The notes under the pieces are model-generated. The model did no database searches. It saw only the letters and a list, made by a program, of their open reading frames with translations, and was not told where the DNA came from. Shown here piece by piece: positions 28,401-44,368 of a stretch of 64,000 nt of DNA (its first letter is position 1; every line of letters starts with the position of its first letter). The stretch comes from an uncultured bacterium (GTDB lineage: Bacteria > Planctomycetota > Phycisphaerae > Phycisphaerales > SM1A02): assembly GCA_903891095.1 (NCBI GenBank), contig CAITDI010000116.1, positions 1-64,000 of the forward strand, in the 5' to 3' direction. The position numbers were made by a program, and so were the translations under genes.

Positions 28401-28568
28401 CAGCGCGCCCGCGAGATACGACAACTCCGCCCAATCCCGCAGGCAATGTCGTCTTAGGGGCGTTTGGGGAAATCTCGGATCTCTTCAGAAGTTCCGAGGC
28501 ATTCGTCCGATACAGGGGCGATGACGAGCCGCCACCCGAACGTGGGAATCGACGCGGCAGGACAGGAC

Positions 28569-29009
28569 ATGACCATGAACCGAACTCTCTCCGAAACAGC
28601 TCTTCCTGAACTCTCGACTGAGATCGACCTGTTCTTTGCGCTGGCCGCTGCGCCAGAGCTGATGAGCCCGATCCTCGCGCTGCCGACCGAGCAGCTGGTC
28701 GCGCGCGACGAGGACGAGGACGAGAGCTTCGACCTCGATGACGACGACGACGACTTCGGCGAGGAAGACGACTTCGGCGACGAAGACGAAGAAGCCGAGG
28801 CCGACGACGACGAGGACGAGGACGAAGACGAAGACGAGGATGAAGACGAGGACGAGGACGAACTCGAAGACGAAGAAGAGGAAGAAGTCGAGGAAGAAGA
28901 CGAGGACGAAGAAGAGGATGAGGACGAAGACGAGGAAGACGACGGCGACGACGAATTCCTCGACGACGAAGACGACCTCGATGACGACGACGATGACGAC
29001 GACGAGTGA
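28569..29009 (+). CDS. Hyper-acidic protein with Asp/Glu-only C-terminal tail
   Basis: A 146-residue protein. Residues 1-48 form an ordinary amphipathic-looking head (TLSETALPELSTEIDLFFALA...LPTEQLVARD). From about residue 48 to the end the sequence is almost entirely Asp and Glu, with rare Phe, Leu, Gly and Ala. GGACAGGACATGACC precedes the two alternative start codons at 28569 and 28575. The predicted pI is extremely low. Such tails occur in histone-chaperone-like and calcium-binding proteins, but the family cannot be named. Because GAC/GAG repeats are slippage-prone, the length may vary between strains. The next gene is convergent. Confidence 0.65.
   Translation: MTMNRTLSETALPELSTEIDLFFALAAAPELMSPILALPTEQLVARDEDEDESFDLDDDDDDFGEEDDFGDEDEEAEADDDEDEDEDEDEDEDEDEDELEDEEEEEVEEEDEDEEEDEDEDEEDDGDDEFLDDEDDLDDDDDDDDE
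28708..29006 (+). repeat. GAC/GAG/GAA low-complexity tract
   Basis: About 300 nt made almost wholly of GAC, GAT, GAG and GAA codons on the plus strand, with CTC/GTC complement on the other. It encodes the acidic tail of the preceding entry. Codons vary irregularly, so selection on protein charge is likelier than simple microsatellite expansion. Confidence 0.8.
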
Positions 29010-30369: not shown

Positions 30370-33189
30370 TCAGGGCTTGGCGGCCGGCGTCGTCGTCGTG
30401 GTCGACGACGAGCCAGTCGTGTTGACCGGCGGCGCATCGAGCGTCTTCGACGCCTTCAGATCCTTGAAGAACTGGCTCTCTTCGTTCATGGTCTTCGAGC
30501 TCTTGTCGAGCGGCTCCTCGAGCTTCCGCAGGCGCTCGAGCTCGGACGCGTTGAAGTTGTTGTCGTTCGAGTCCGGGTTCTCGACGACGACCGGAACCAG
30601 GAACACCATGAGCTCAACGACGCGCTTCTGGCGCTCGGTGGAGCTGAACGCCGCGCCAAGCAGGGGGATGTCGCCGAGGAACGGCAGGCGGCGATCGAGG
30701 ACGGTTTCTTCCTCGCGACGGATGCCCGAGATCACGATCGTCTGGCCGTCCTTGACGGTGACGTTCGTGTTCGTCTGGCGACGGTCGATGACCGCGTTGC
30801 CGTTCTGCGTGGCGCTCGTGAGGTTCGAGAGGAGGATCTCGACTTCCATCGCGACGTTGTTGTCCTGGGTGATGCGCGGACGCACGTTGATGCCGACGCC
30901 GACGAACTGCTGCTGGAAGCTCGAGGTCGTGCCTGTCGTGCCGAAGCCAGAGGTCTGGCCCGTCTGGATGGTGACGTCCTGACCGGCGACGAACTTGGCT
31001 TCCTTGTTGTCACGCGTGAACACGCGCGGCTGCTGCAGGATGCGCGCCGAGTTGTCGGTCGACAGCGCCTGCAGGAAGAACCCGAGGTCCTGACCGGTCG
31101 AGATCTTGAGCAAGCTCGAGTCGAACCACGGCGACGCGAAGTTGCTGGAGCTGCCAGCAGTCGCGCTGCCCTTGGAGAGGTCGAGCGAGAGCGATCCGCC
31201 CACCGAGTTGTCGCCGCCGTTGATCGGCGCCGACAGGCCGGTGCCGACGCGCGCGCCCCACGAGAAGCCGTCGCCGACGACGACTTCCGCGAGGATCGCG
31301 GTGATCATCACCTGACGGCCCGGCTTGTCGAGCTCATGGATGATCTCGACGACCTTCTTCTCGACTTCCGGCGGCGCCATGACGAGCACCGAGTTCTGCT
31401 CGGCGTTCGGCACCACGCGGCTGCGGCCGATGAGGCCGCTGACTTCGCTGACGGGACCGCTGCCCGCGCCCTGGCCCGCACGCGTTCCCTGCCACGGGAA
31501 GCGGAGCTGATCGCTCGACCCAGTGGAGCCCGGGTTGAACGGCGAGCTGCCGAGGCCGCTGCTGCTGCTGCCGCCGCTGTTGCCGCTGTCAAACGTCGCG
31601 CCGAGGCCTTGGATGCCTTCCTGCGGAAGGCGCAGGCCGCCACCTTCGGAGCCGGACGATGCGAGCAGGGTGTTGAGGATCTCGCTGAGCTCGACCGCGC
31701 CCGCGTGCTTGAGCGGCACGTTGACGGGGAGACCCGACGTAAACGGCTGATCGAGGTCTGCGATCCAACGATCGAGCCAATCGTAGTTGTCGGGGGTCTT
31801 CGAGATCACCACGAGGCGATTCGAGTCGGGGTACGCCTCGATCGAGAAGATGTTGGCCACGGCCGCCGTCGGCGAACCGTCGCCACCCTGCGCGCCGCCA
31901 AGCTGCGGCACGCGGCCGCCGGCAAAGGCGCGGTTCTGCGTCTGGCCCTGTCGGCTGCTGCTGGAGCTGCCTCCGCCGAGCAGAGTTCCCAGAAGGTCGC
32001 GCACCTTGCTCGGATCCGCGTACTTGAGGTCGTACGTGCGGAAGATGCTGCCAGCCGAGTTCGGCGGCAGATCCCACGCCTTCGCGACGAGGCGACGGAT
32101 CTCAGCCATCACCGTCGGCGTTGCGCGCACGGTGAGGGAGTTCATCGACTGCAGCGTGGAAACGATGAGTCCGTTGGCGCTTCCGCCGCCCTGCGCGCCG
32201 GGCACGCCTGGCTGCTGCGGGACGCCGCGGTTCTGCTGACGCTGGTTGTTGCCGCCGGCGCGCTGGCCACCGATCGAACGGCCGCCGCCCGAGCCCGAGT
32301 CGGAGAACAGGTCCTCGATGATCGCCGCGATGGTGCTCGCGTCCTGGTACTGCAGGCGGAAGGTCTCGGTCGTGTAGTCGTCCCACGACGGCACGTCGAG
32401 CATGTTGATCAGCGTCTGCACCTTCTTGGCGAGACCGATGTCACCCGAGAGGATCAGCTGGTTCGAGTCGCCGTCGGCAGCAAGCTGCGCGTACTCCTCG
32501 GGAATCAGCGGCTCGATGCGGTCGAGCACGTCGGTCGCCTTCGACTGGCGCAGGCGATAGACCTTGGTCACGAACAGACCGTTGTCGGGCATGCTCATGA
32601 CCTCTTCATCGGGGCCGAGCACGACGCCGGGCTGCGTCTTCTTCTGCTGCGAGACCTGACCGATGTAGATCGCGTCTTCGGTCTCAGTGACCGCGAGATC
32701 CTCGAACTTGAGCGCCTGGAAGATGAAGTCCAGCGCCTGGCTCTTCGGGATCTTCTTCGTGCCGAGGAAGGTGATCTTCTTGTTGGCGAGGTCCGCCGGC
32801 TTGTAGAAGACGAACTTGCCCGTCCACTGGAAGATGTTGGGGATCACCGCTTCGATCGGCTGGTTCGACACCGAGAAGTCGACGAGTTCGTCGTCGATCA
32901 CCTGGCGGCCTTCACGCACGCCGCGCAGCTGCGACGGCGGGGTCGCTGCCGGCGGGCTGGGGGGGAAGCTCGCGACGTTGCGCGGGTCGGGCTTGGTGGC
33001 GCCGGCGTCCGCGGTCTTCGGCGGGGTGGCGGGAGCGGCGTTCGTTGCGACCGGGTCGGCCTTCGGCGCGCTCGCGGGAGCCTGGGCGATCGCAGTCGGC
33101 GTCATCACGCCAGCAAAGGCGATGAAAGTCGACGTGCGCACAATCTCGGTCAGGCTCGGCGCGCGGAAGAAAATTCGGTTCGGACGCAA
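30370..33189 (-). CDS. gspD: Type II secretion system secretin (GspD)
   Basis: The outer-membrane channel of the type II secretion system, 939 residues. A signal region ending near AIAQA is followed by a Pro/Ala linker (40-90). Then come N0 (VDFSVSNQPIEAVIPNIF...AIYIGQ, ~100-180) and several N-type domains: FVTKVYRLRQSKATDVLDRI, TTETFRLQYQDASTIAAII, FRTYDLKYADPSKVRDLL and VPLKHAGAVELSEILNTLL. The beta-barrel secretin domain (~640-890) has VGVGINVRPRI, VTVKDGQTIVISGI and RLPFLGDIPLLGAAF. Gly/Gln/Ser-rich insertions separate the N domains. I keep the TTG at 33189 because GGAG lies eight nt ahead and an in-frame TGA lies just upstream; a GTG 17 codons in is the alternative. Confidence 0.94.
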   Translation of the reverse strand: MRPNRIFFRAPSLTEIVRTSTFIAFAGVMTPTAIAQAPASAPKADPVATNAAPATPPKTADAGATKPDPRNVASFPPSPPAATPPSQLRGVREGRQVIDDELVDFSVSNQPIEAVIPNIFQWTGKFVFYKPADLANKKITFLGTKKIPKSQALDFIFQALKFEDLAVTETEDAIYIGQVSQQKKTQPGVVLGPDEEVMSMPDNGLFVTKVYRLRQSKATDVLDRIEPLIPEEYAQLAADGDSNQLILSGDIGLAKKVQTLINMLDVPSWDDYTTETFRLQYQDASTIAAIIEDLFSDSGSGGGRSIGGQRAGGNNQRQQNRGVPQQPGVPGAQGGGSANGLIVSTLQSMNSLTVRATPTVMAEIRRLVAKAWDLPPNSAGSIFRTYDLKYADPSKVRDLLGTLLGGGSSSSSRQGQTQNRAFAGGRVPQLGGAQGGDGSPTAAVANIFSIEAYPDSNRLVVISKTPDNYDWLDRWIADLDQPFTSGLPVNVPLKHAGAVELSEILNTLLASSGSEGGGLRLPQEGIQGLGATFDSGNSGGSSSSGLGSSPFNPGSTGSSDQLRFPWQGTRAGQGAGSGPVSEVSGLIGRSRVVPNAEQNSVLVMAPPEVEKKVVEIIHELDKPGRQVMITAILAEVVVGDGFSWGARVGTGLSAPINGGDNSVGGSLSLDLSKGSATAGSSSNFASPWFDSSLLKISTGQDLGFFLQALSTDNSARILQQPRVFTRDNKEAKFVAGQDVTIQTGQTSGFGTTGTTSSFQQQFVGVGINVRPRITQDNNVAMEVEILLSNLTSATQNGNAVIDRRQTNTNVTVKDGQTIVISGIRREEETVLDRRLPFLGDIPLLGAAFSSTERQKRVVELMVFLVPVVVENPDSNDNNFNASELERLRKLEEPLDKSSKTMNEESQFFKDLKASKTLDAPPVNTTGSSSTTTTTPAAKP

Positions 33190-33205: not shown

Positions 33206-33367
33206 CTAGCGCGGCTCGATTGAGCCGCTGGTGTCATCCATCTGTTGCCGCACGAGGGCGGCAATGGCGGTGTTCGTTATGTCTCCATCGGCAAGCGCTG
33301 CAGAAAGCGACCAATGGAAGGTGATTTCCAGTCCCGAGAGGGTCGGGGCGGGGATCTGCTGTCTCAA
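33206..33367 (-). CDS. Possible small gene (53 codons) between the gspC-like gene and gspD
   Basis: The otherwise empty 174 nt between two tightly packed operon genes hold an open frame from a TTG at 33367 to a TAG at 33206-33208. The TTG overlaps the upstream stop as TTGA, the same type of joint seen elsewhere in this window, and the stop lies 16 nt before gspD. The predicted peptide (LSGLEITFHWSLSAALADGD...TAIAALVRQQMDDTSG) looks natural and mostly uses G/C third positions, but has no recognised family and no strong ribosome binding site. It could instead be a leftover of a longer, frameshifted C-terminus of the upstream gene. Confidence 0.4.
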   Translation of the reverse strand: MRQQIPAPTLSGLEITFHWSLSAALADGDITNTAIAALVRQQMDDTSGSIEPR

Positions 33368-34494
33368 GGCTTGCTGATTCGCGCCTGGAGAAGCTGGCGC
33401 TCGTGGTTCAGCCGCGCGCGGCTGTGGTCGTCGACGTTCCACGAGTTTGTGGCGTCGATGGCTGCGAGCGCGGCGCGCGCCTGATCGCGGTTCATCGCAG
33501 AGATCTGCACGTCGGTCAGCGTGGGCGGCAATTGCTCGCGGTCGACGTACTCCTCCACCGGTTTGTCATTGCTCGAGGCAGGGGGTTCGAACTTCTGCGG
33601 CTTCATCGCCTGCGATGGAAGCTGGGGCTCGCCCTCAGGTCCTGGGCCCGAGGGACGATCAGCACCAGGCTGTTCGCCAGGGCCGACGTTGTTCGGATTG
33701 GTGTTCGGATTGGCGTTGGGATCGCCGGGCTTGACCGGCGTCGCGGTACCAGGGGCGTTGCGCGTTCCTACGCGCGGACCGCCGAATCCAGCTGCGCCCG
33801 CCGCGCCACCGACGCGCGGTCCAGCCGCGCCGCCGACTGCGGTTCCGGCTGCGCCTGCGCCGCCGGCCGCGCCAGTCGCCGAACTACCGCCAGCAGTGCC
33901 AGAGGAGCTCGCGGACGAGGTTCCAGCGCCGCCAACGGTAAGACCGCTGCTCGACGCGGGCTTCATCAGCTTCGAATCCATCTTGGGCAGCAGGGGCACG
34001 TCGTACTCGCCACGCTGGTAGCCGAGCTTGATCGAAGCGCTGCTGGTGATCGCGATGACCGTGATGCCCTTCTCAGTCTGACCGAGCTTGACGGTGTCCG
34101 TCCCGAAGTAGACGGTCTCGCCGATCACGCTGGTCGGTGCAGGTCCGGTGTAGCTGGCCGGCGCCGGCGGCGGACCAAGGTCCACCTTCGGCTGCTCGAC
34201 GGGCTTCGGCTGCTCCACGATCTTCGGCCTGCGCACCGGCATCGGCGGCAGCGAATACATCGAGCGGCCTTCGAAGCGCTTTCGGCTCTGCTCAAGCAGC
34301 TTGCTGCTGCCATCGGTCAGTGGCCCGAGCGGGTCGGCCTTGTCCGCCGCAATCGACGGCTGCAGCAGCGAGCGGCCGATGGCGCCCACGCCAAACGCCA
34401 CGACGACGGCAGAAACGCCGACCGCCGCAGCCGAGACGAGCACGGGCGTCGAGACGCGCATACCCGCGGGAAGGCGATCAATGATGAACCTCAT
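33364..34494 (-). CDS. GspC/PilP-like type II secretion component
   Basis: A 376-residue inner-membrane protein: one N-terminal transmembrane helix (VLVSAAAVGVSAVVVAFGVGA, ~18-40), a Pro-rich stretch (60-120), then a small beta domain SVIGETVYFGTDTVKLGQTEKGITVIAITS...IKLGYQRGEYDVPLL like the HR domain of GspC or the PilP core, which contacts the secretin. A long Gly/Ala/Ser/Asn linker (~195-300) follows, and a C-terminal ~50-residue helical segment (LTDVQISAMNRDQARAALAA...) similar to the end of the GspL-like protein. Its ATG overlaps the stop of the GspM-like gene (ATGA). The assignment rests on domain layout and operon position, not on strong motifs. Confidence 0.7.
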   Translation of the reverse strand: MRFIIDRLPAGMRVSTPVLVSAAAVGVSAVVVAFGVGAIGRSLLQPSIAADKADPLGPLTDGSSKLLEQSRKRFEGRSMYSLPPMPVRRPKIVEQPKPVEQPKVDLGPPPAPASYTGPAPTSVIGETVYFGTDTVKLGQTEKGITVIAITSSASIKLGYQRGEYDVPLLPKMDSKLMKPASSSGLTVGGAGTSSASSSGTAGGSSATGAAGGAGAAGTAVGGAAGPRVGGAAGAAGFGGPRVGTRNAPGTATPVKPGDPNANPNTNPNNVGPGEQPGADRPSGPGPEGEPQLPSQAMKPQKFEPPASSNDKPVEEYVDREQLPPTLTDVQISAMNRDQARAALAAIDATNSWNVDDHSRARLNHERQLLQARISKP

Positions 34495-35129
34495 GCTCCA
34501 CCTCGCGCGGTCTTCTTCACGACGCCCCACTTCTCAAGGGTCATCTGCACGCCGACACGCTTGGTGCCGGGGTTGTAGTTCAGGCGAAGGTCGCCGATCG
34601 CGTCGATCGCCGGATTGGCGTCGAGGTCGGAAATCACCGAGAGAACCGCTTCAGGCGAGCCTTCGAAGCGGACTTCGGCAACGGTCTTGCCCATCGTTCC
34701 GCCGAGCGCCGACGCGACGTCGGGCATGACCGACCCCGGCAGCGGCTGCGCGGGGCGAACGTCCTGACCGGGATTGATGTTCTTCTTCTTGAACACCTCG
34801 GCGATCGCCGCGGCGAGCTTCTCCTTGCCGGAGGTCTCTGCCTTGGGAACGGTGTTCGGTCCGTGGGCGAGCACGCTCTGCTCGACGTCGCTCGGGAGAC
34901 CTTCGGAGCGGGCGGAAGCGCGCTTCAGCACCAGCTCCATGCGATCCGCACGGCGGTTCATGTCGTCGGCGATCGGCCAAAGCACGCTATCGAGGACGAA
35001 GAAGCCACCGAGGGCGATCACGCCAATCGCACCCCAGCGACCGGCGCGCGGCAGCTGGTGATACGCGTGAAGGGCGCGCTCAAACGGATCGCGGGAACGA
35101 GCGGAGTTGTTGTTGGTGGGCGTACTCAC
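34491..35129 (-). CDS. gspM: GspM/PilO-like type II secretion component
   Basis: A 212-residue bitopic inner-membrane protein. One transmembrane helix (GRWGAIGVIALGGFFVLDSVLWPI, ~31-54) is followed by a helical region with heptad character (DDMNRRADRMELVLKRASARSE) and a ferredoxin-like alpha/beta end (TVAEVRFEGSPEAVLSVISDLDANP...VGVQMTLEKWGVV). This is the PilO/GspM layout. It starts with a GTG overlapping the GspL-like stop (GTGA) and its own stop overlaps the next ATG, so L, M and C-like products are coupled and probably form the GspL-M-C assembly platform. Confidence 0.8.
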   Translation of the reverse strand: MSTPTNNNSARSRDPFERALHAYHQLPRAGRWGAIGVIALGGFFVLDSVLWPIADDMNRRADRMELVLKRASARSEGLPSDVEQSVLAHGPNTVPKAETSGKEKLAAAIAEVFKKKNINPGQDVRPAQPLPGSVMPDVASALGGTMGKTVAEVRFEGSPEAVLSVISDLDANPAIDAIGDLRLNYNPGTKRVGVQMTLEKWGVVKKTARGGA

Positions 35130-37108
35130 TGCATGCCCTTCAGTCGGTCGAGGATGCGATTGAAATCGACGTCCAGCCGCTTGCGCGTGTCCGCGTCGAG
35201 GTCCGGGCGGCGCTTCGCCTTGGCGAAGTCTGCGAGAAGCGCTCGCGCCGTTTCCTTGGTCATCGTCTTGAGCTGGTCGTCCGTGACTTCATCGGGAATG
35301 GCGGTGTTCTGCATCGCGGTCGCAGCGGGGCCGCCGCCTGCGCCAACGCCAGAACTCGCCGTCGCAGGCTTGTCGCCGCCATCCGTCCCCGGTGCCGTGG
35401 CGGGATCGCGACGACCGATGCCGCGCGCGGGAACGCCACCGTCTCCGCTGCCGCCGGCCGTTGAGCCGCCGTTGCTGCGAGAAGAGGTTGCGCCGTTCGC
35501 TTTGGTGGATGTATCCGCCGCGCTCGCCAGCGTGTTTCCTTCCGCCGCGGCGCCATCGCCCTTGGCGGCATCAGTGCCTGCGTTGGCGTGGGTCGCGGCG
35601 TCATGCGACGAGTCCGCCGAATCGGCGTCGTCGACCATGTTGTACTTCCGCTGCGCGAGCGTCTTCACGGCCCAGTCGCGGTCTTCGGGGAAGTCGGCCG
35701 CCATCGTCGGGCGCGTGATCAGCGAGTCGAGATCGAACTTGAAGATTCCGCGGCCGTCCGGGGTGTTCCAGCGCCAGTGGGTCTTGTCGAACACGCCGGA
35801 CGAATCCATCAGGCGAGCCATCGAGTTCACGATCTCGGCTGCGGACTTCTCGCCCTGCGCCTTGGCAACGCCGCGCACGGAGATGCCCTGCGTCGCGGAG
35901 AGCTGGATCGATTCGATCTCGACGCCGTCCGGGGTGCAGCAGGCGAGGTCGCCCAGCAGCTTTGCCATCGGGAGCGTGCGCTTGGAGAGTTCGCTGTACA
36001 GCTGGATGCGCTGCTCGATCTCCTTCTGGGAGACCTCGAACTTGCCCGCGCTTTCCGGCATCTTCCACTCGAGCACCTTGCCGCGCAGCCAAGCTGCGGC
36101 GATCGGGGCAATGCCGGCGATCACGAATGCGGCCACCGCGACGCGAAGCGCCCGCGAAGGCGACGAGTAGCGCTCGGCGAACTGTTCGATGCGGGTCGGC
36201 GCATTGCGCTGCTCGCGGCGACGAAGCCGAGCGAGTTCGCTCAGGTTGCCGCAGCAGATCAGCGTCGCGGCGAGCGGGATGGCCCAGCTCCGCCACCAAC
36301 TCGCGTCGTCTTCCGCTCCCGCAACTTGCACGGTGAGCTTGGATCCAAGCAGATCGGCGACGTTGGCGTCGAGCATCACGACGCGCGTGCCTGACTCCTC
36401 CGACGACGAATCCGCCTGCGCGAGGAACGCCGCGATCCGCGACGGCTCCATGCCAGCGTTGAGCGCGGTCTCCACCAGTGCCTGGCGAAGACCCTCGCGC
36501 CATGCGGCGCCGCCATCGGCGGCATCAGCGGGCGATTCGCGGGTTGCGCGGATGACGAGTCCTTCGGTGCCCTGCAGAGCGATGGCAATGGACCCGTCCG
36601 CACTGTCGGCGGCAACGGCAGGGTGCCCGTTCGCCGCGAGCAGCAGCATGGCAGCCGGCTCGGGGACGTAGCGGGTGATGGTCTCGAGCTTCGCGCCGAC
36701 TTCGACGCCGACCTGCGTCTCAGGCCACGCCATGATCACGCCCTGGCGCTCGGTGTCGGACTTTCCGTCGAGGATGCCGAGGCCGATGCGCGCCATCGGC
36801 ACGGATCCGAGGAAGACGCCCTCAGCCTGGAGACGGAGCGCCGCGAGCATCTGCAGCGGGGCGGCGGCAGGCATGCTCTGGGTTCGGACGATCGTCGCTG
36901 CGGCCGGCAGGATCACCCGCAGGTCGCCGCATCGCTGCGAATCGAGCCAAGCCGCAAGACCGGTCTGGTCGTTGGCGGAGAACTCGCGTGCATTCAGGAT
37001 GGTGGGTCGGTCGCCGCGGCGAACGAGCAGCACCCGCCAGCCTTCGGCTTGGCGCTCGGCGACCGCAAGCAGCGTGTCGTCGATGGTGTTGGTCGGTTGG
37101 GATTTCAC
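35126..37108 (-). CDS. gspL: GspL/PilM-PilN-like type II secretion component
   Basis: A 660-residue protein with a GspL/PilM-N layout: an N-terminal actin-like cytoplasmic part (~1-270: LLAVAERQAEGWRVLLVRRGD, TIVRTQSMPAAAP, LAALRLQAEGVFLG), a transmembrane region near 285-350 and a PilN-like periplasmic part (KMPESAGKFEVSQKEIEQRIQLYSEL, IESIQLSATQGISVRGVAKA). It bridges the ATPase to the periplasmic platform. After about residue 510 comes a long Gly/Ala/Ser/Asp linker, then a helical end (VTDDQLKTMTKETARALLAD...) shared with the GspC-like protein. Both ends overlap neighbouring genes by four nt. Confidence 0.82.
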   Translation of the reverse strand: MKSQPTNTIDDTLLAVAERQAEGWRVLLVRRGDRPTILNAREFSANDQTGLAAWLDSQRCGDLRVILPAAATIVRTQSMPAAAPLQMLAALRLQAEGVFLGSVPMARIGLGILDGKSDTERQGVIMAWPETQVGVEVGAKLETITRYVPEPAAMLLLAANGHPAVAADSADGSIAIALQGTEGLVIRATRESPADAADGGAAWREGLRQALVETALNAGMEPSRIAAFLAQADSSSEESGTRVVMLDANVADLLGSKLTVQVAGAEDDASWWRSWAIPLAATLICCGNLSELARLRRREQRNAPTRIEQFAERYSSPSRALRVAVAAFVIAGIAPIAAAWLRGKVLEWKMPESAGKFEVSQKEIEQRIQLYSELSKRTLPMAKLLGDLACCTPDGVEIESIQLSATQGISVRGVAKAQGEKSAAEIVNSMARLMDSSGVFDKTHWRWNTPDGRGIFKFDLDSLITRPTMAADFPEDRDWAVKTLAQRKYNMVDDADSADSSHDAATHANAGTDAAKGDGAAAEGNTLASAADTSTKANGATSSRSNGGSTAGGSGDGGVPARGIGRRDPATAPGTDGGDKPATASSGVGAGGGPAATAMQNTAIPDEVTDDQLKTMTKETARALLADFAKAKRRPDLDADTRKRLDVDFNRILDRLKGMQ

Positions 37109-38637
37109 TGTTCTCTGTACTCCAGAATGCGCGCGGGGAGCGTCGAACGATCAATCACTGCTGTGATTTCAACCTCAAGTCCAGTTGTCGCAGATCGCCC
37201 ACGGCTGGTGACCGTGAACACGTAGCTCTGCGTATCGGCGTAGGCGGCGAGGGCTGCGAGCGCTTGGGGGGTAATACGGTTGGAATCACGAAGATCGGAA
37301 ATGGCGAGCAGCCCTGAGGATGACGCGCTCCTCAGCGAGATGATCGCCTCGGCACTAATCGGATCATCAGGCAGCAACGCACGAAGAACGGACGGCGGGG
37401 CGGTATTGAGGTTGACCTTGCCGACCGGCGGGGTGTCCGCGGTGTCCAGCGTGGCCTCCTGGAAGATCTTGCGGAGCTGCCCTTGGTCGAGCGACTGCAT
37501 GCGCCCGTTGCCGCCTTGCTGGCCGCCGACGCCCGAGGAACTGCGCCCGCTCTGACGACCCGTTCCCGACTGCGACTGACCGCCGCCGCCGTCGAAAGCC
37601 TGCTTGCCGTTATCAGTCCCCTTCGCAGCGTTGCCGGTCGAGAGTCCGCCGTTGTTGCCGCCGCCGCTGCCGCCGCGCTGCATCGGATTGCCTCGCCCTT
37701 GGCTGCTGGACTGCTGTCCGCCGCCCGCAGCGAGAGTGGATAGATCCTGCGTGAGGAGCATCTCCATGCGTGCGCTTTGCGACTTGCCGAACGCGCTGAG
37801 CGCGCCAGCCTGTTCGGCGGTGACGCCGAGACGGGCCTGAAGGTCTTCCACCGTGGCATCGCGCAGGTTGAGTCGCGGCTCGCCGGACGAGCCGATCAGG
37901 CTGCCCGTGGTGCGCGCCGTCAGCGCGCTCGACCAACCGGCGTCGAGAAAGCCGTCTGCGTCGTCCGGCGGCTCGCTCGCCGAGCCGTCGTTTTCGTTGG
38001 GATCGAGCCGGCCGTTGAGGTTCTGGTCTTCGCCGCGCACGCTCTTGGGGAACGCGCCCGCGACGAGCTCCAGTTCGGCCACCGAGCGGAAGTTGCCGTT
38101 GCGAGGCTCATAGCCCAGTCGGCGGTTGACGTAGAACTCGTACTCAGCGCCCATCATGCCCGGCGTGTCGTCGGCGTCACGCCAGTCGATGATCGCGTCG
38201 GCGACGTCCATCGTCATGCCGTCGAGTTCGAGCAGGGTGTTGCGCGTCACCGTGTTGACGTTGAGCTTCGCGTGCTCGTCCTGCGGTCCCTTGACCTCGA
38301 CGCCGTCCTCGGCGTGGCGGATCTGCCAGTCGCCCGAGGCCAGCTGCCCATCGGCGACGGTCTCGAGGTCCTTGTACATCTGACGTGCATTGGAAGGGTC
38401 GGGCTTCTCGGTGTGGTACTCCAGCACCGCGAGCGTCTCTTCGATGCCTGCGCGAGCGGCCCAACGCGCCTCGACCTTGGCGATCGACTCGCGTCCCATC
38501 GAGGCCTGGCGGAATGCAAGCACCTGCGCTGCGCCGACGATGACCGCCGCGATAGCGACCGCCCAGATGACGATCACGATCACGGATCCGCGTCGAGCGA
38601 TGGTGCGCGTTCGCTTGTTCATCAGCGGCCTCTTCAT
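37105..38637 (-). CDS. gspK: Type II secretion pseudopilin GspK
   Basis: GspK forms the tip of the pseudopilus with GspI and GspJ. The 510-residue protein starts with a basic leader and RRGSVIVIVIWAVAIAAVIVGAAQV, the GspK-type N-terminal helix lacking the usual Glu5. The alpha domain typical of GspK follows: AELELVAGAFPK, ARLGVTAEQAGALSAFGK and VNLNTAPPSVLRALLPDDPISAEAI, the last being the conserved 'VNLNTA' helix-hairpin-helix-like motif. A calcium-loop-like DQNLNGRLDPNENDG sits near 205-220. A Gly/Ser/Gln/Asn-rich insertion (about 310-385) splits the domain and is not typical. Its start overlaps the gspJ stop by one nt (TAATG). Confidence 0.92.
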   Translation of the reverse strand: MKRPLMNKRTRTIARRGSVIVIVIWAVAIAAVIVGAAQVLAFRQASMGRESIAKVEARWAARAGIEETLAVLEYHTEKPDPSNARQMYKDLETVADGQLASGDWQIRHAEDGVEVKGPQDEHAKLNVNTVTRNTLLELDGMTMDVADAIIDWRDADDTPGMMGAEYEFYVNRRLGYEPRNGNFRSVAELELVAGAFPKSVRGEDQNLNGRLDPNENDGSASEPPDDADGFLDAGWSSALTARTTGSLIGSSGEPRLNLRDATVEDLQARLGVTAEQAGALSAFGKSQSARMEMLLTQDLSTLAAGGGQQSSSQGRGNPMQRGGSGGGNNGGLSTGNAAKGTDNGKQAFDGGGGQSQSGTGRQSGRSSSGVGGQQGGNGRMQSLDQGQLRKIFQEATLDTADTPPVGKVNLNTAPPSVLRALLPDDPISAEAIISLRSASSSGLLAISDLRDSNRITPQALAALAAYADTQSYVFTVTSRGRSATTGLEVEITAVIDRSTLPARILEYREQ

Positions 38638-40870: not shown

Positions 40871-41305
40871 TCAGTCGGTCTTCTTCGGGGCCTTGCCGTT
40901 GGTGATGTCGGCGTTCTCGCCTTCACCGCCCGGAGTGCCGTCCGCGCCGTAGCTCACGATGTCGAAGTCGCGGCCGTTGGTGCCGTCGACGATGAGGTAG
41001 CGGTTGCCCCACGGATCGAGGAGGTCGTCGGTCGACTCGAGGAATTCGGGAACGAGCGCGTCGAGCGCGAAGTCCGAGCCAAGCTTGGTCTGCTTGCGGT
41101 CGGTGAGGTAGAGCTTGACCTGGGTGGCGATGGTGTTCGCCTCGGTGCGGGCCTGGTCCTGCTTCGCGCCCGAGAGTCGCTTGAGCAGCTGCGGCGCGAC
41201 GAGACCCGCGAAGATCGCGATGATCGTGACGGCGACGATGACCTCGATGAGGCTGAAGCCACGGCGGATGGCGCGGACCGAGCGACGAGTGTTGTTGGAA
41301 CGCAT
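40871..41305 (-). CDS. gspG: Type II secretion major pseudopilin GspG
   Basis: A 144-residue major pseudopilin that polymerises into the periplasmic pseudopilus. The leader ends SVRAIRRG and continues FSLIEVIVAVTIIAIFAGLVAPQLL with Phe1 and Glu5. The body matches GspG: KQDQARTEANTIATQVKLYLTDR, then LLDPWGNRYLIVDG and FDIVSYGADGTPGGEGENADI, the last being the calcium-binding C-terminal loop. AGGAG sits five to six nt before the ATG at 41305. It follows gspF by 29 nt. Confidence 0.96.
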   Translation of the reverse strand: MRSNNTRRSVRAIRRGFSLIEVIVAVTIIAIFAGLVAPQLLKRLSGAKQDQARTEANTIATQVKLYLTDRKQTKLGSDFALDALVPEFLESTDDLLDPWGNRYLIVDGTNGRDFDIVSYGADGTPGGEGENADITNGKAPKKTD

Positions 41306-41334: not shown

Positions 41335-42552
41335 TTACGCGCCCGCGGCTTTCTGAAGTTCGATGATCGGAAGCAGGATCGCGGAGAGCACGAAGCTCGC
41401 CACGAGCGCCATCACTACAAGCAGGACAGTAGGGAGGATGCGGGTAAACAACTTGAGGGAGTTGTTGACCTGACGGTCGAACGACCCCGCGGCGTGCAGG
41501 AGCATCTGCTCCAGGCGGCCGGAGCGCTCGCCGATATTCACGATCTGGACGAGCAGCGGCGGGAAGTGTCCGCTGCGCTCGAGCGGGTCGGCGAGCGACT
41601 GTCCGGTCGAAACCTTGTCCGAAACCTGGTCGATCGCGTTCATCAGCGCCTGGTTGCCCAGCGTGTCGCGGACGATCTTGAGCGCGCTCAGGATCGGGAT
41701 GCCGGCCGAGACCAGCGTTCCGAGCGTGCGCGTGAAGCGCGCAACGGCAATGTCGCGCACAAGGCGACCAACGACCGGAAGTCGCAGCAGGAAGGTGTCG
41801 AAGCGGAGCCGGTTGGCGGGCTTCGCGAGCCAGTTTCGCCATGTCACGACCGCCAGAAGGATGGCGGCGAGGATGACGAGCCACCAGCTGGTGACGAACG
41901 CCGAGATCGCCATGAGGATCTTGGTCGGCAGCGGCAGTTCGAGGTTTGCCTGGATGATCGGTTTCATCACGCGCGGAAGAACGAACGCGATGAGCACCAC
42001 GACGCTGACCGCGATCAGACCCGCGATCATCATTGGATAGACGACGGCGCCGACGACTTCGCGGCGGAGCTCCACCGAGCGCTCGAGCAGATCGCCGAGC
42101 TGATGCAGGATTTCCGCGGTACGCCCCGACGCATCGGCCGCGCGCAGCATGCCGGTGGTCATGTCGTCGAACGGCGGCCCGTACTCCTTCGCAGCGGTGT
42201 GGAACGGCACGCCCGCCTCCACGCGCTCGATGATGAAGTCGAGGATCGTCTGCAGGTTCTTGTGTCCCGCCTGGCGACGCACGGTCCGCAGCGCCTGCAT
42301 GAGCGGGAGGCCTGCTTCAAGCGCGGTCGCGAGCTCGCGCACGAGATCGGCGAGCTCGGAGCGTGAGATCACAGGGCGCGCAGCTGGTCCGCTGGATTCA
42401 ACGGCGGCATCGGCTTCGCTCATCGTGAGCTCAAGCGGAGTCTCGCCCTTTTGCTGGATCAACCGCATGGCAGTAGCGCGGTCCGGCGCCATGAGCGTGC
42501 CGGACTGCATTGCGCCATCCGACGCCAGGGCTTGGTAGCGGAACGACGGCAT
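41335..42552 (-). CDS. gspF: Type II secretion inner membrane protein GspF
   Basis: The 405-residue platform protein of the type II system. The N-terminal cytoplasmic part begins MPSFRYQALASDGAMQSGTL; two GspF domains follow (RELATALEAGLPLMQALRTV; RFTRTLGTLVSAGIPILSALKI), each ending in hydrophobic helices (GAVVYPMMIAGLIAVSVVVLIAFVLPRV; ILPTVLLVVMALVASFVLSAILLPI). The intradomain LVQIVNIGERSGRLEQMLLH motif is typical. It starts nine nt after gspE, and the paralogue at 20885 belongs to the separate pilus-like operon. Confidence 0.95.
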   Translation of the reverse strand: MPSFRYQALASDGAMQSGTLMAPDRATAMRLIQQKGETPLELTMSEADAAVESSGPAARPVISRSELADLVRELATALEAGLPLMQALRTVRRQAGHKNLQTILDFIIERVEAGVPFHTAAKEYGPPFDDMTTGMLRAADASGRTAEILHQLGDLLERSVELRREVVGAVVYPMMIAGLIAVSVVVLIAFVLPRVMKPIIQANLELPLPTKILMAISAFVTSWWLVILAAILLAVVTWRNWLAKPANRLRFDTFLLRLPVVGRLVRDIAVARFTRTLGTLVSAGIPILSALKIVRDTLGNQALMNAIDQVSDKVSTGQSLADPLERSGHFPPLLVQIVNIGERSGRLEQMLLHAAGSFDRQVNNSLKLFTRILPTVLLVVMALVASFVLSAILLPIIELQKAAGA

Positions 42553-42561
42553 GGTGGCGGA

Positions 42562-44286
42562 TTAGCCCTTCTTGTCCTGGTTGCCGACGCGCTGGTTCGC
42601 CTCGCGGAGCTTCAGATCCTCGGAGAAGTCCTCGACGTCCTGCGTGGCGCGGAGCACTTCCTCGACGGTGGTGATGCCTTCGGCGACCTTGCGGATGCCG
42701 TCTTCGCGCATCGTGATGAAGTCGGGATCAAGCAGCGCCTTGAGTTCGTGCACCGGGCGGTTCTGCGCGATGGCGGCGCGGAGCGGCGACGAGATGCGAA
42801 CGATCTCGAAGAAGCCGAGACGACCGCGGAAGCCGCTGTTGCCGCACTTCTCGCAGCCACGGCCGACGTTCTGGAATCCGCCGAGTCGCTGCCGTTCATC
42901 CGGGGACAGGCGGTTCTGCGTGTCCTCGCTGATCGGGCGACGCTCCTTGCACACGTCGCAGATGCGGCGACCGAGGCGCTGCGCGAGCAGGCCTTCGAGC
43001 ACGCTTGCCGCGAGATACGGTTCGGCGCCCATGTCGAACAGACGCCCGACCGACGAAATCGCGTCGTTGGTGTGCAGCGTCGAGAAGATGAGGTGGCCCG
43101 TGAGTGCGGAGCGGATCGCGATGTCGGCCGTTTCGGTATCGCGGATTTCGCCGACGAACACGATGTCAGGGTCCTGACGCAGGATCGCGCGCAGGCCCGT
43201 CGCGAAGCTGAGTCCGCGCTTGGCGTTGACCGGGATCTGGTTGATGCCGTTGAGCTCGTACTCGACGGGATCCTCGATGGTGATGATCTTCTTGCGCGGG
43301 TCGTAGAGCTTCGACAGCGCCGCGTACAGCGTGGTCGTCTTGCCCGAGCCGGTCGGACCCGTGACGAGCACGAGGCCGTGGGGCTTCTCGATCATGCGGT
43401 CGACCACCGCGCGGTGCGATTCGCTCATGCCGAGGCTCTTGAGGTCGAGCGGCAGCGAGCTCTTGTCGAGGATACGCATGACAACCGATTCGCCGTACAG
43501 CGTCGGCACGGTCGACACGCGGATGTCGACCTTGCGGCCTTCGAATCGCAGCGTGATGTGGCCGTCCTGCGGCACATAGCGCTCGGCGATGTTCATGCCC
43601 GCCATGATCTTGATGCGGCCGATCAGCGCGGCCTGCAGATGCTTCGGCGGCTGGGGCTGCGAGACGAGCACGCCGTCGACGCGGTACTTGACGCGCAGCT
43701 CGCTCTCGAACGGCTCGACGTGCACGTCGCTGGTGCGGCTCTGGATCGCTTCGAGAAGAATGAGGTTGACCAGGTTGATCAGCGTGGGCTGCTCAGCCAT
43801 GCGGTGGACGTCATCCGCTTCGATCGCGTCGAGGTTGTGCTCGTTGTCAGGGGTCGCGGCAAGACCGCCGTCGGACGCCAGCGTCTCCGCCATGCGCGCC
43901 GCAGTGGTGCCGTAGCGGTCGCGCATGAGCTCGCGGAACGCGGGTCCTTCGAGACCGATGCGTCGCACCGAACGCGAGGTGACCGCGCCGATCTCATCGA
44001 CCGCGGCGGTGTCCAACGGGTTGAGCATCGCGACGATCAGTCGCGTGCCATCGATCGACACTGGAACTGCGCCGAGCCGAACCGCGATCTCGGGAGCGAG
44101 CAACTCCGCCGCTGCGGCGTCGGACTGCGGGACCTTGTCAAGCCACTCGATGCCGAGCATCGCGCAGCGCTCGCGCACGCCTGCGTCCTGCGAAGGTGAC
44201 ACAGGGGTCGCTCGCGCGTCCTTGACGTTGGCCGTGATGGTGGTCACGGTCGCGGTTCCGTTCATGCCGTTGGTTCCAGTCTGCAC
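42562..44286 (-). CDS. gspE: Type II secretion assembly ATPase GspE
   Basis: The cytoplasmic hexameric ATPase that drives pseudopilus growth; 574 residues. N1E-like domain near 45-140 (IAVRLGAVPVSIDGTRLIVAMLNPLD). Core: Walker A TGPTGSGKTTT, Asp box TIEDPVEYELNGINQIPVN, Walker B FVGEIRDTETADIA, His box GHLIFSTLHTNDAISS, and a tetracysteine zinc site CDVC...CEKC near 460-500. I chose the GTG at 44286 because AGGA lies six nt ahead; an in-frame ATG at 44265 is close and possible. Most of the downstream operon genes abut or overlap one another, so this is effectively the head of the core system. Confidence 0.94.
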   Translation of the reverse strand: MQTGTNGMNGTATVTTITANVKDARATPVSPSQDAGVRERCAMLGIEWLDKVPQSDAAAAELLAPEIAVRLGAVPVSIDGTRLIVAMLNPLDTAAVDEIGAVTSRSVRRIGLEGPAFRELMRDRYGTTAARMAETLASDGGLAATPDNEHNLDAIEADDVHRMAEQPTLINLVNLILLEAIQSRTSDVHVEPFESELRVKYRVDGVLVSQPQPPKHLQAALIGRIKIMAGMNIAERYVPQDGHITLRFEGRKVDIRVSTVPTLYGESVVMRILDKSSLPLDLKSLGMSESHRAVVDRMIEKPHGLVLVTGPTGSGKTTTLYAALSKLYDPRKKIITIEDPVEYELNGINQIPVNAKRGLSFATGLRAILRQDPDIVFVGEIRDTETADIAIRSALTGHLIFSTLHTNDAISSVGRLFDMGAEPYLAASVLEGLLAQRLGRRICDVCKERRPISEDTQNRLSPDERQRLGGFQNVGRGCEKCGNSGFRGRLGFFEIVRISSPLRAAIAQNRPVHELKALLDPDFITMREDGIRKVAEGITTVEEVLRATQDVEDFSEDLKLREANQRVGNQDKKG

Positions 44287-44368
44287 TCGGGATCCTGTTC
44301 TGGAGCTGTTTGCCGCCAATTGCGTTCGACTGCGTTGCGGCTCTTTGTGCGCTGACGCTCTGCTTCGC

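Follow-up and report, generated by a model that had tools for sequence, protein, structure and literature searches.

The window, i.e., the whole 64,000-bp stretch that was analyzed (G000:C116:1-64000), comes from a 3.6-Mb genome that is 98.6% complete and carries a type II secretion operon on the minus strand in the order E-F-G-H-I-J-K-L-M-C-D. The operon starts with the GspE ATPase (42562..44319), recognized by Walker-type motifs in the open reading frame and by its same place in related operons, and continues with GspF (41335..42552; Pfam T2SSF, E 3.4e-53), the major pseudopilin GspG (40871..41305; Pfam T2SSG, E 3.5e-14) and the minor pseudopilin GspK (37105..38637; Pfam T2SSK_1st, E 5.5e-11). 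A GspL-like gene (660 aa; 35126..37108) lies between the GspK and GspM-like genes, and the GspM-like gene itself (212 aa; 34491..35129) is followed by a GspC-like gene (388 aa; 33364..34530) and by the secretin GspD (30370..33189; Pfam Secretin, E 4.8e-42), which against TIGR02517 scored 348 bits, slightly below the cut-off of 351.35. The GspD secretin, GspE/F, GspG and GspK are thus found within one operon, as a type II secretion system demands. No match above cut-off to any Pfam or NCBIfam family was obtained for the L-, M-, and C-type proteins, and their names derive from gene order, for L also from a weak match to PilN and for C from a homology-region (HR)-like beta domain. Ranked by GspL, planctomycete MAGs are the closest among named relatives, with ZH-13MAY13-plancto13 leading at 64% identity. 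A 181-aa open reading frame on the plus strand (28464-29009) adjoins the operon and encodes a protein whose C-terminus carries a very long run of Asp and Glu. Three more secretin genes are present in the source genome (G000:C65, C23, and C82), one of them in a 4336-codon open frame.

The GspL-like gene has the position between gspK and gspM expected for GspL, a protein that joins a cytoplasmic ASKHA-like domain to a transmembrane segment and a PilN/ferredoxin-like periplasmic domain. Its product contains a predicted transmembrane segment and a putative PilN/ferredoxin-like periplasmic domain (35636..36151, minus strand, as are all features of the two proteins described here; identity 0.60 within the genus), of which residues 384-442 match Pfam PilN weakly and under the cut-off (E 0.022). 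The protein continues past the ferredoxin-like domain with an Ala/Ser/Gly/Asn-rich linker of 112 residues (35300..35635) and a C-terminal module of 57 residues (35129..35299), delimited by the alignment of GspL tails, profile matches and an AF2 model. The GspC-like protein has, as is usual for GspC, a single predicted N-terminal transmembrane segment (34369..34443; hydrophobic stretch VLVSAAAVGVSAVVVAFGVGAIG) and a gene next to gspD; transmembrane segments and signal peptides were assigned by eye. In GspC the HR domain makes contact with the N0 domain of the secretin; here the candidate is a conserved block (33967..34161), an HR-like beta domain modeled by AF2 as six-stranded with a pLDDT of 77.8. 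When this model was compared by Foldseek with 350,542 PDB chains the best hit was GspB (4wfw, E 0.63), with GspC (3oss, E 1.8) at rank 7, neither being significant, and a profile of the domain found nothing among PDB sequences. After a Gly/Ala/Ser/Asn/Pro-rich linker of 145 residues (33532..33966) the protein ends in a module of 55 residues (33367..33531; profile match 33373-33531). The GspC-like protein matched nothing in Pfam, PDZ included, and the new module occupies that slot. As they follow the transmembrane segment, both modules are expected on the periplasmic side.

The original prediction was that the two proteins end in segments of the same pattern (33367-33519 and 35129-35287), each joined to its main domain by a long Gly/Ala/Ser/Asn linker. 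Both statements are borne out, with the module extended by about four codons at its N-terminal end. Compared pairwise by BLASTP the two tails are 35% identical over 43 columns (E 6e-6 for a single comparison) and shuffling one of them 20,000 times reached the observed score once, a modest signal. Taken alone, such a match between Ala/Arg-rich segments encoded by GC-rich DNA would be compatible with chance low-complexity helical ends of like composition that share no ancestry. GspL tails were aligned from a first set of 41 operons (that of the window plus 40 more drawn from its genus, family and order), and all 41 have a conserved end module after an unalignable linker. An HMM built from these tails, with no GspC in it, recovered 20 GspC-like C-termini with E-values from 3e-21 to 3e-4, that of the window at 2.9e-9, while the next-best match among 5481 open reading frames had an E-value of only 0.89. 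Alignment of the GspL-tail and GspC-tail profiles by hhalign gave 99.3% probability and an E-value of 7e-21 over all 55 columns. Because a GspL-only model recovers the GspC-like C-termini with a clean gap to unrelated reading frames, and because the profiles align along their whole length, the GspL-like and GspC-like C-terminal segments are homologous and form one family. The HMM search and the hhalign result refute an explanation by chance composition, which is also contradicted by a gap-free conserved segment adjoining drifting linkers and which we regard as extremely improbable.

Within the genus the GspL module has an identity of 0.56 with a gap fraction of 0.01, compared to 0.34 and 0.24 for its linker, and the GspC-like module has 0.60 and 0.00, compared to 0.40 and 0.27. 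The core domains have a within-genus identity of about 0.5-0.6, comparable to that of the module. The module is thus under constraint and the tether is not. An AF2 model from 45 sequences is a compact fold of three helices (7-12, 15-29, and 36-54; mean pLDDT 92.7), and the module is predicted to fold independently. The family, found on extracytoplasmic proteins, has the signature PLTxEQIxxM-x4-A-x3-L ... D-x5-RL-x3-F. According to column counts position 46 holds F or W in GspL and in the carriers outside the secretion system, whereas the GspC copy mostly has R there, i.e., the two copies have diverged. The 45 modules gave only scattered weak matches to Pfam, the best with an E-value of 0.0045, none above cut-off and none common to more than four members. 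The best match of the module profile to PDB sequences, 9zem, is a designed protein with a repeated 'ALTPEQIAAL' and was rejected as a motif match rather than a relative. Foldseek returned no significant structural relative, so that no binding partner can be deduced from a known fold; all that recurred were weak hairpins resembling uL29. Like the module, uL29 has a short helix followed by a helical hairpin (TMq about 0.75-0.8), but with non-significant E-values of about 1-4 and no relation in sequence the resemblance is likely an analogy.

The module is a fixed part of GspL in this lineage. Among 70 loci from named genomes, 67 have a complete GspL end and all 67 carry it, while it was never found on GspM or GspD in the same 70 loci, nor is it present on these two proteins in the window. 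It was matched in 121 of the 132 genomes of the family. Five of the 11 genomes without a match give a GspL match, and the three of these in which the sequence reaches the GspL end (genera g55 and g57) have a diverged tail (E 1e-4 to 1e-5). These two genera are therefore no counterexample, as the diverged tail is found wherever the end of GspL can be read. In samples from the class and the phylum the module was found only within the order of the window, in families f1, f2 in part, f3, and f4, and was absent from families f5 and f6 of the sampled set. Elsewhere in the class, operons from other orders with an identical gene arrangement (L192 and L193) encode a GspL whose last part is the ferredoxin-like domain, which indicates that the tail is an addition. 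The module is thus a lineage-specific addition to the GspL end in part of Phycisphaerales. This agrees with the expectation that such a tail is foreign to classic GspC and GspL, as does the fact that no family library names it. The profile searches also removed the two outcomes that would have spoken against the original prediction, i.e., a similarity no greater than chance and a segment not conserved in related operons.

The copy on the GspC-like protein has a narrower distribution. Of 74 scorable operons, 32 have it and 42 lack it; 17 of 91 were left out of the scoring, as most relatives are MAGs with contig ends. On a tree of 91 GspL cores the pattern requires two changes, with gain and loss not separable, and 31 of the 32 positive rows fall in one clade that contains no negative row (SH-aLRT 88). 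From these two results it follows that the second copy is old and mostly vertically inherited: the GspC-like partner acquired it in one or two ancient events, and it has since been passed on by descent. This history bears on the original proposal that the two copies bind each other and so couple two platform proteins by a dedicated contact. Tethered copies on neighboring genes, co-conserved across a large clade and with group-specific residues as in a heterodimer, are what such a contact would look like. On the other hand, 42 operons, including those of all sampled outgroup families, have the module on GspL and none on the GspC-like protein. As the GspL module is present where the partner has none, an exclusive contact between L and C is excluded as the original function and could at most be a later role in one clade. 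The proposal thus keeps its co-conserved pair in the clade with the C copy and loses its claim to be the original or sole role, the GspL copy being universal; as an account of the module a dedicated L-C contact is quite unlikely. Where the C copy is lacking (L056, L058, L139, L140, and others) the end of the GspC-like protein is often a low-complexity stretch of strongly acidic character, and the mean net charge of the last 60 residues is -7.4 in genomes without the C copy, vs. -0.3. A charge pairing between the GspL module and these acidic tails was considered and dropped since the GspL module is no more basic in those genomes. Helical tails of other kinds, e.g., with a repeated MSEEDRERMKNRWSN-like motif, end the GspC-like proteins of other orders or families (L193:8573-9319 and L194:9066-10292), so that the C-terminal slot of GspC is variable across the class.

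In some relatives the module profile also matches exported or extracytoplasmic proteins of unrelated function. The module stands at the C-terminus of a beta-lactamase-fold protein (L089) and of thioredoxin-like proteins (L100 and L107), twice in tandem at the C-terminus of each of several secreted DUF1579 proteins (L087, L091, L098, and L104), on a vWA protein (L088) and at the N-terminus of the proteins of L090 and L093. It also stands at the far, extracytoplasmic C-terminus of Ser/Thr kinases with TPR repeats in genus g56 (L105, L109, and L110), where up to eight module matches per genome are found, while some small lipoproteins (L108 and L111-L113) contain little beyond one module. A further group of secreted proteins ending in the module (L086, L099, L102, L103, and L106) was judged by eye to be secretin-N-like; these resemble the N0/N1 domains of secretins without the pore, and those scanned matched neither Pfam nor NCBIfam. 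One of them (L086:4131-5201) has a final 233 bp that are 93.6% identical in DNA to the gspL 3' end of the same genome (L058), and its module is therefore a recent copy of the end of the gspL gene. The neighbors of the extra carriers (genes for a GTPase, Met-tRNA synthetase, fructosamine kinase, and others) have no common theme. The source genome has the two secretion copies and no other carrier.

These carriers suggest two further explanations. First, the GspL and GspC-like modules may bind homotypically to exported proteins that carry a module of their own and so recruit them to the secretion machine. Exported enzymes with a C-terminal module, i.e., the beta-lactamase-fold, DUF1579 and thioredoxin-like proteins, fit such client docking, and so does the role of the Vibrio cholerae GspC C-terminal domain in substrate selection (PMC12369372). 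However, carriers are few or none per genome and none in the source genome, they include kinases, which are implausible clients, and the GspL tail is universal even where a genome has no other carrier. Client docking is therefore rather unlikely. Second, and as the main rival to a role in protein interaction, the module may bind peptidoglycan or another component of the wall or outer membrane and so fix the platform and the other carriers in the envelope. The unrelated extracytoplasmic carriers, including the lipoproteins that are nearly module only, point in this direction, as does a GspL module that is kept with or without the copy on its partner. Against such an anchor, the module resembled no known wall-binding family in searches of Pfam and PDB sequences and no such fold in Foldseek, the column counts reveal no prominent conserved polar pocket, and the source genome has two secretion copies only. 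An envelope anchor is unlikely, if still worth considering.

A small conserved fold that is flexibly tethered and reused on unrelated extracytoplasmic proteins fits a generic periplasmic interaction module, and the module is probably a reusable, previously undescribed protein-docking part. The chances are about even that it is an autonomous periplasmic three-helix interaction module that works by association between modules or by docking to a protein partner. The original prediction had offered an undescribed contact point or a regulatory handle of this secretion system. The homologous tethered helical module on neighboring proteins stands, whereas its restriction to the system and to the pair does not, since it also occurs outside the secretion system and on GspL without a copy on the partner; of the two roles, contact or docking is the more likely. 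With such a tether the module would presumably reach out from the platform in the inner membrane to a periplasmic protein and bind it. Most likely, modules would associate with each other in such a way that they cluster GspL, that in the clade with the C copy this clustering also takes in the GspC-like protein and that in some genomes extra module-bearing envelope proteins gather around the platform. An identical self-association of all copies is unlikely since the GspL and GspC modules differ at position 46. It is tempting to speculate that GspL and the GspC-like protein serve as receptor arms to which exported and envelope proteins with the same module are brought by homotypic binding. Such clade-specific plug-in docking is very doubtful; if true, a tag-and-receptor logic would have arisen by duplication of one machine part. 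No part of type II secretion is understood as poorly as the GspL/GspM/GspC platform. A module acquired by GspL in a single lineage, with later copies on GspC and further envelope proteins, amounts to a natural experiment in how the platform communicates with the periplasm. It also yields a signature by which a domain family not covered by any Pfam model can be recognized in sequences.

Short C-terminal domains of the SHOCT type are small, mobile and helical and are found at the ends of unrelated proteins. The module is alike in all these respects but has no Pfam match, is longer and was here found only on extracytoplasmic parts. Relative to known secretion platforms, the GspL-like and GspC-like tails make a new variant, and none of the papers searched combines Planctomycetes, type II secretion and GspL. 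In P. aeruginosa the periplasmic part of GspL consists of a membrane-proximal and a ferredoxin-like domain, and the protein dimerizes through the latter (PMC6233222). The GspL-like protein shares gene order, the transmembrane segment and a weakly detected PilN-type domain with XcpY and EpsL, and differs from the P. aeruginosa protein in that the 112-residue linker and the module are added in the periplasm. The C-terminal slot of GspC holds a PDZ domain, a coiled coil or nothing, depending on the species, and in V. cholerae the domain in this slot is needed for secretion of particular substrates (PMC12369372). Like the PDZ domain or coiled coil of EpsC, OutC, and XcpP, the module ends a GspC-type protein after a transmembrane segment, an HR-like domain and a linker. 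Unlike them, it has 55 residues in three helices, constitutes a family of its own without a PDZ match and is homologous to the tail of GspL, i.e., the variable slot of GspC has here been filled from inside the same machine.
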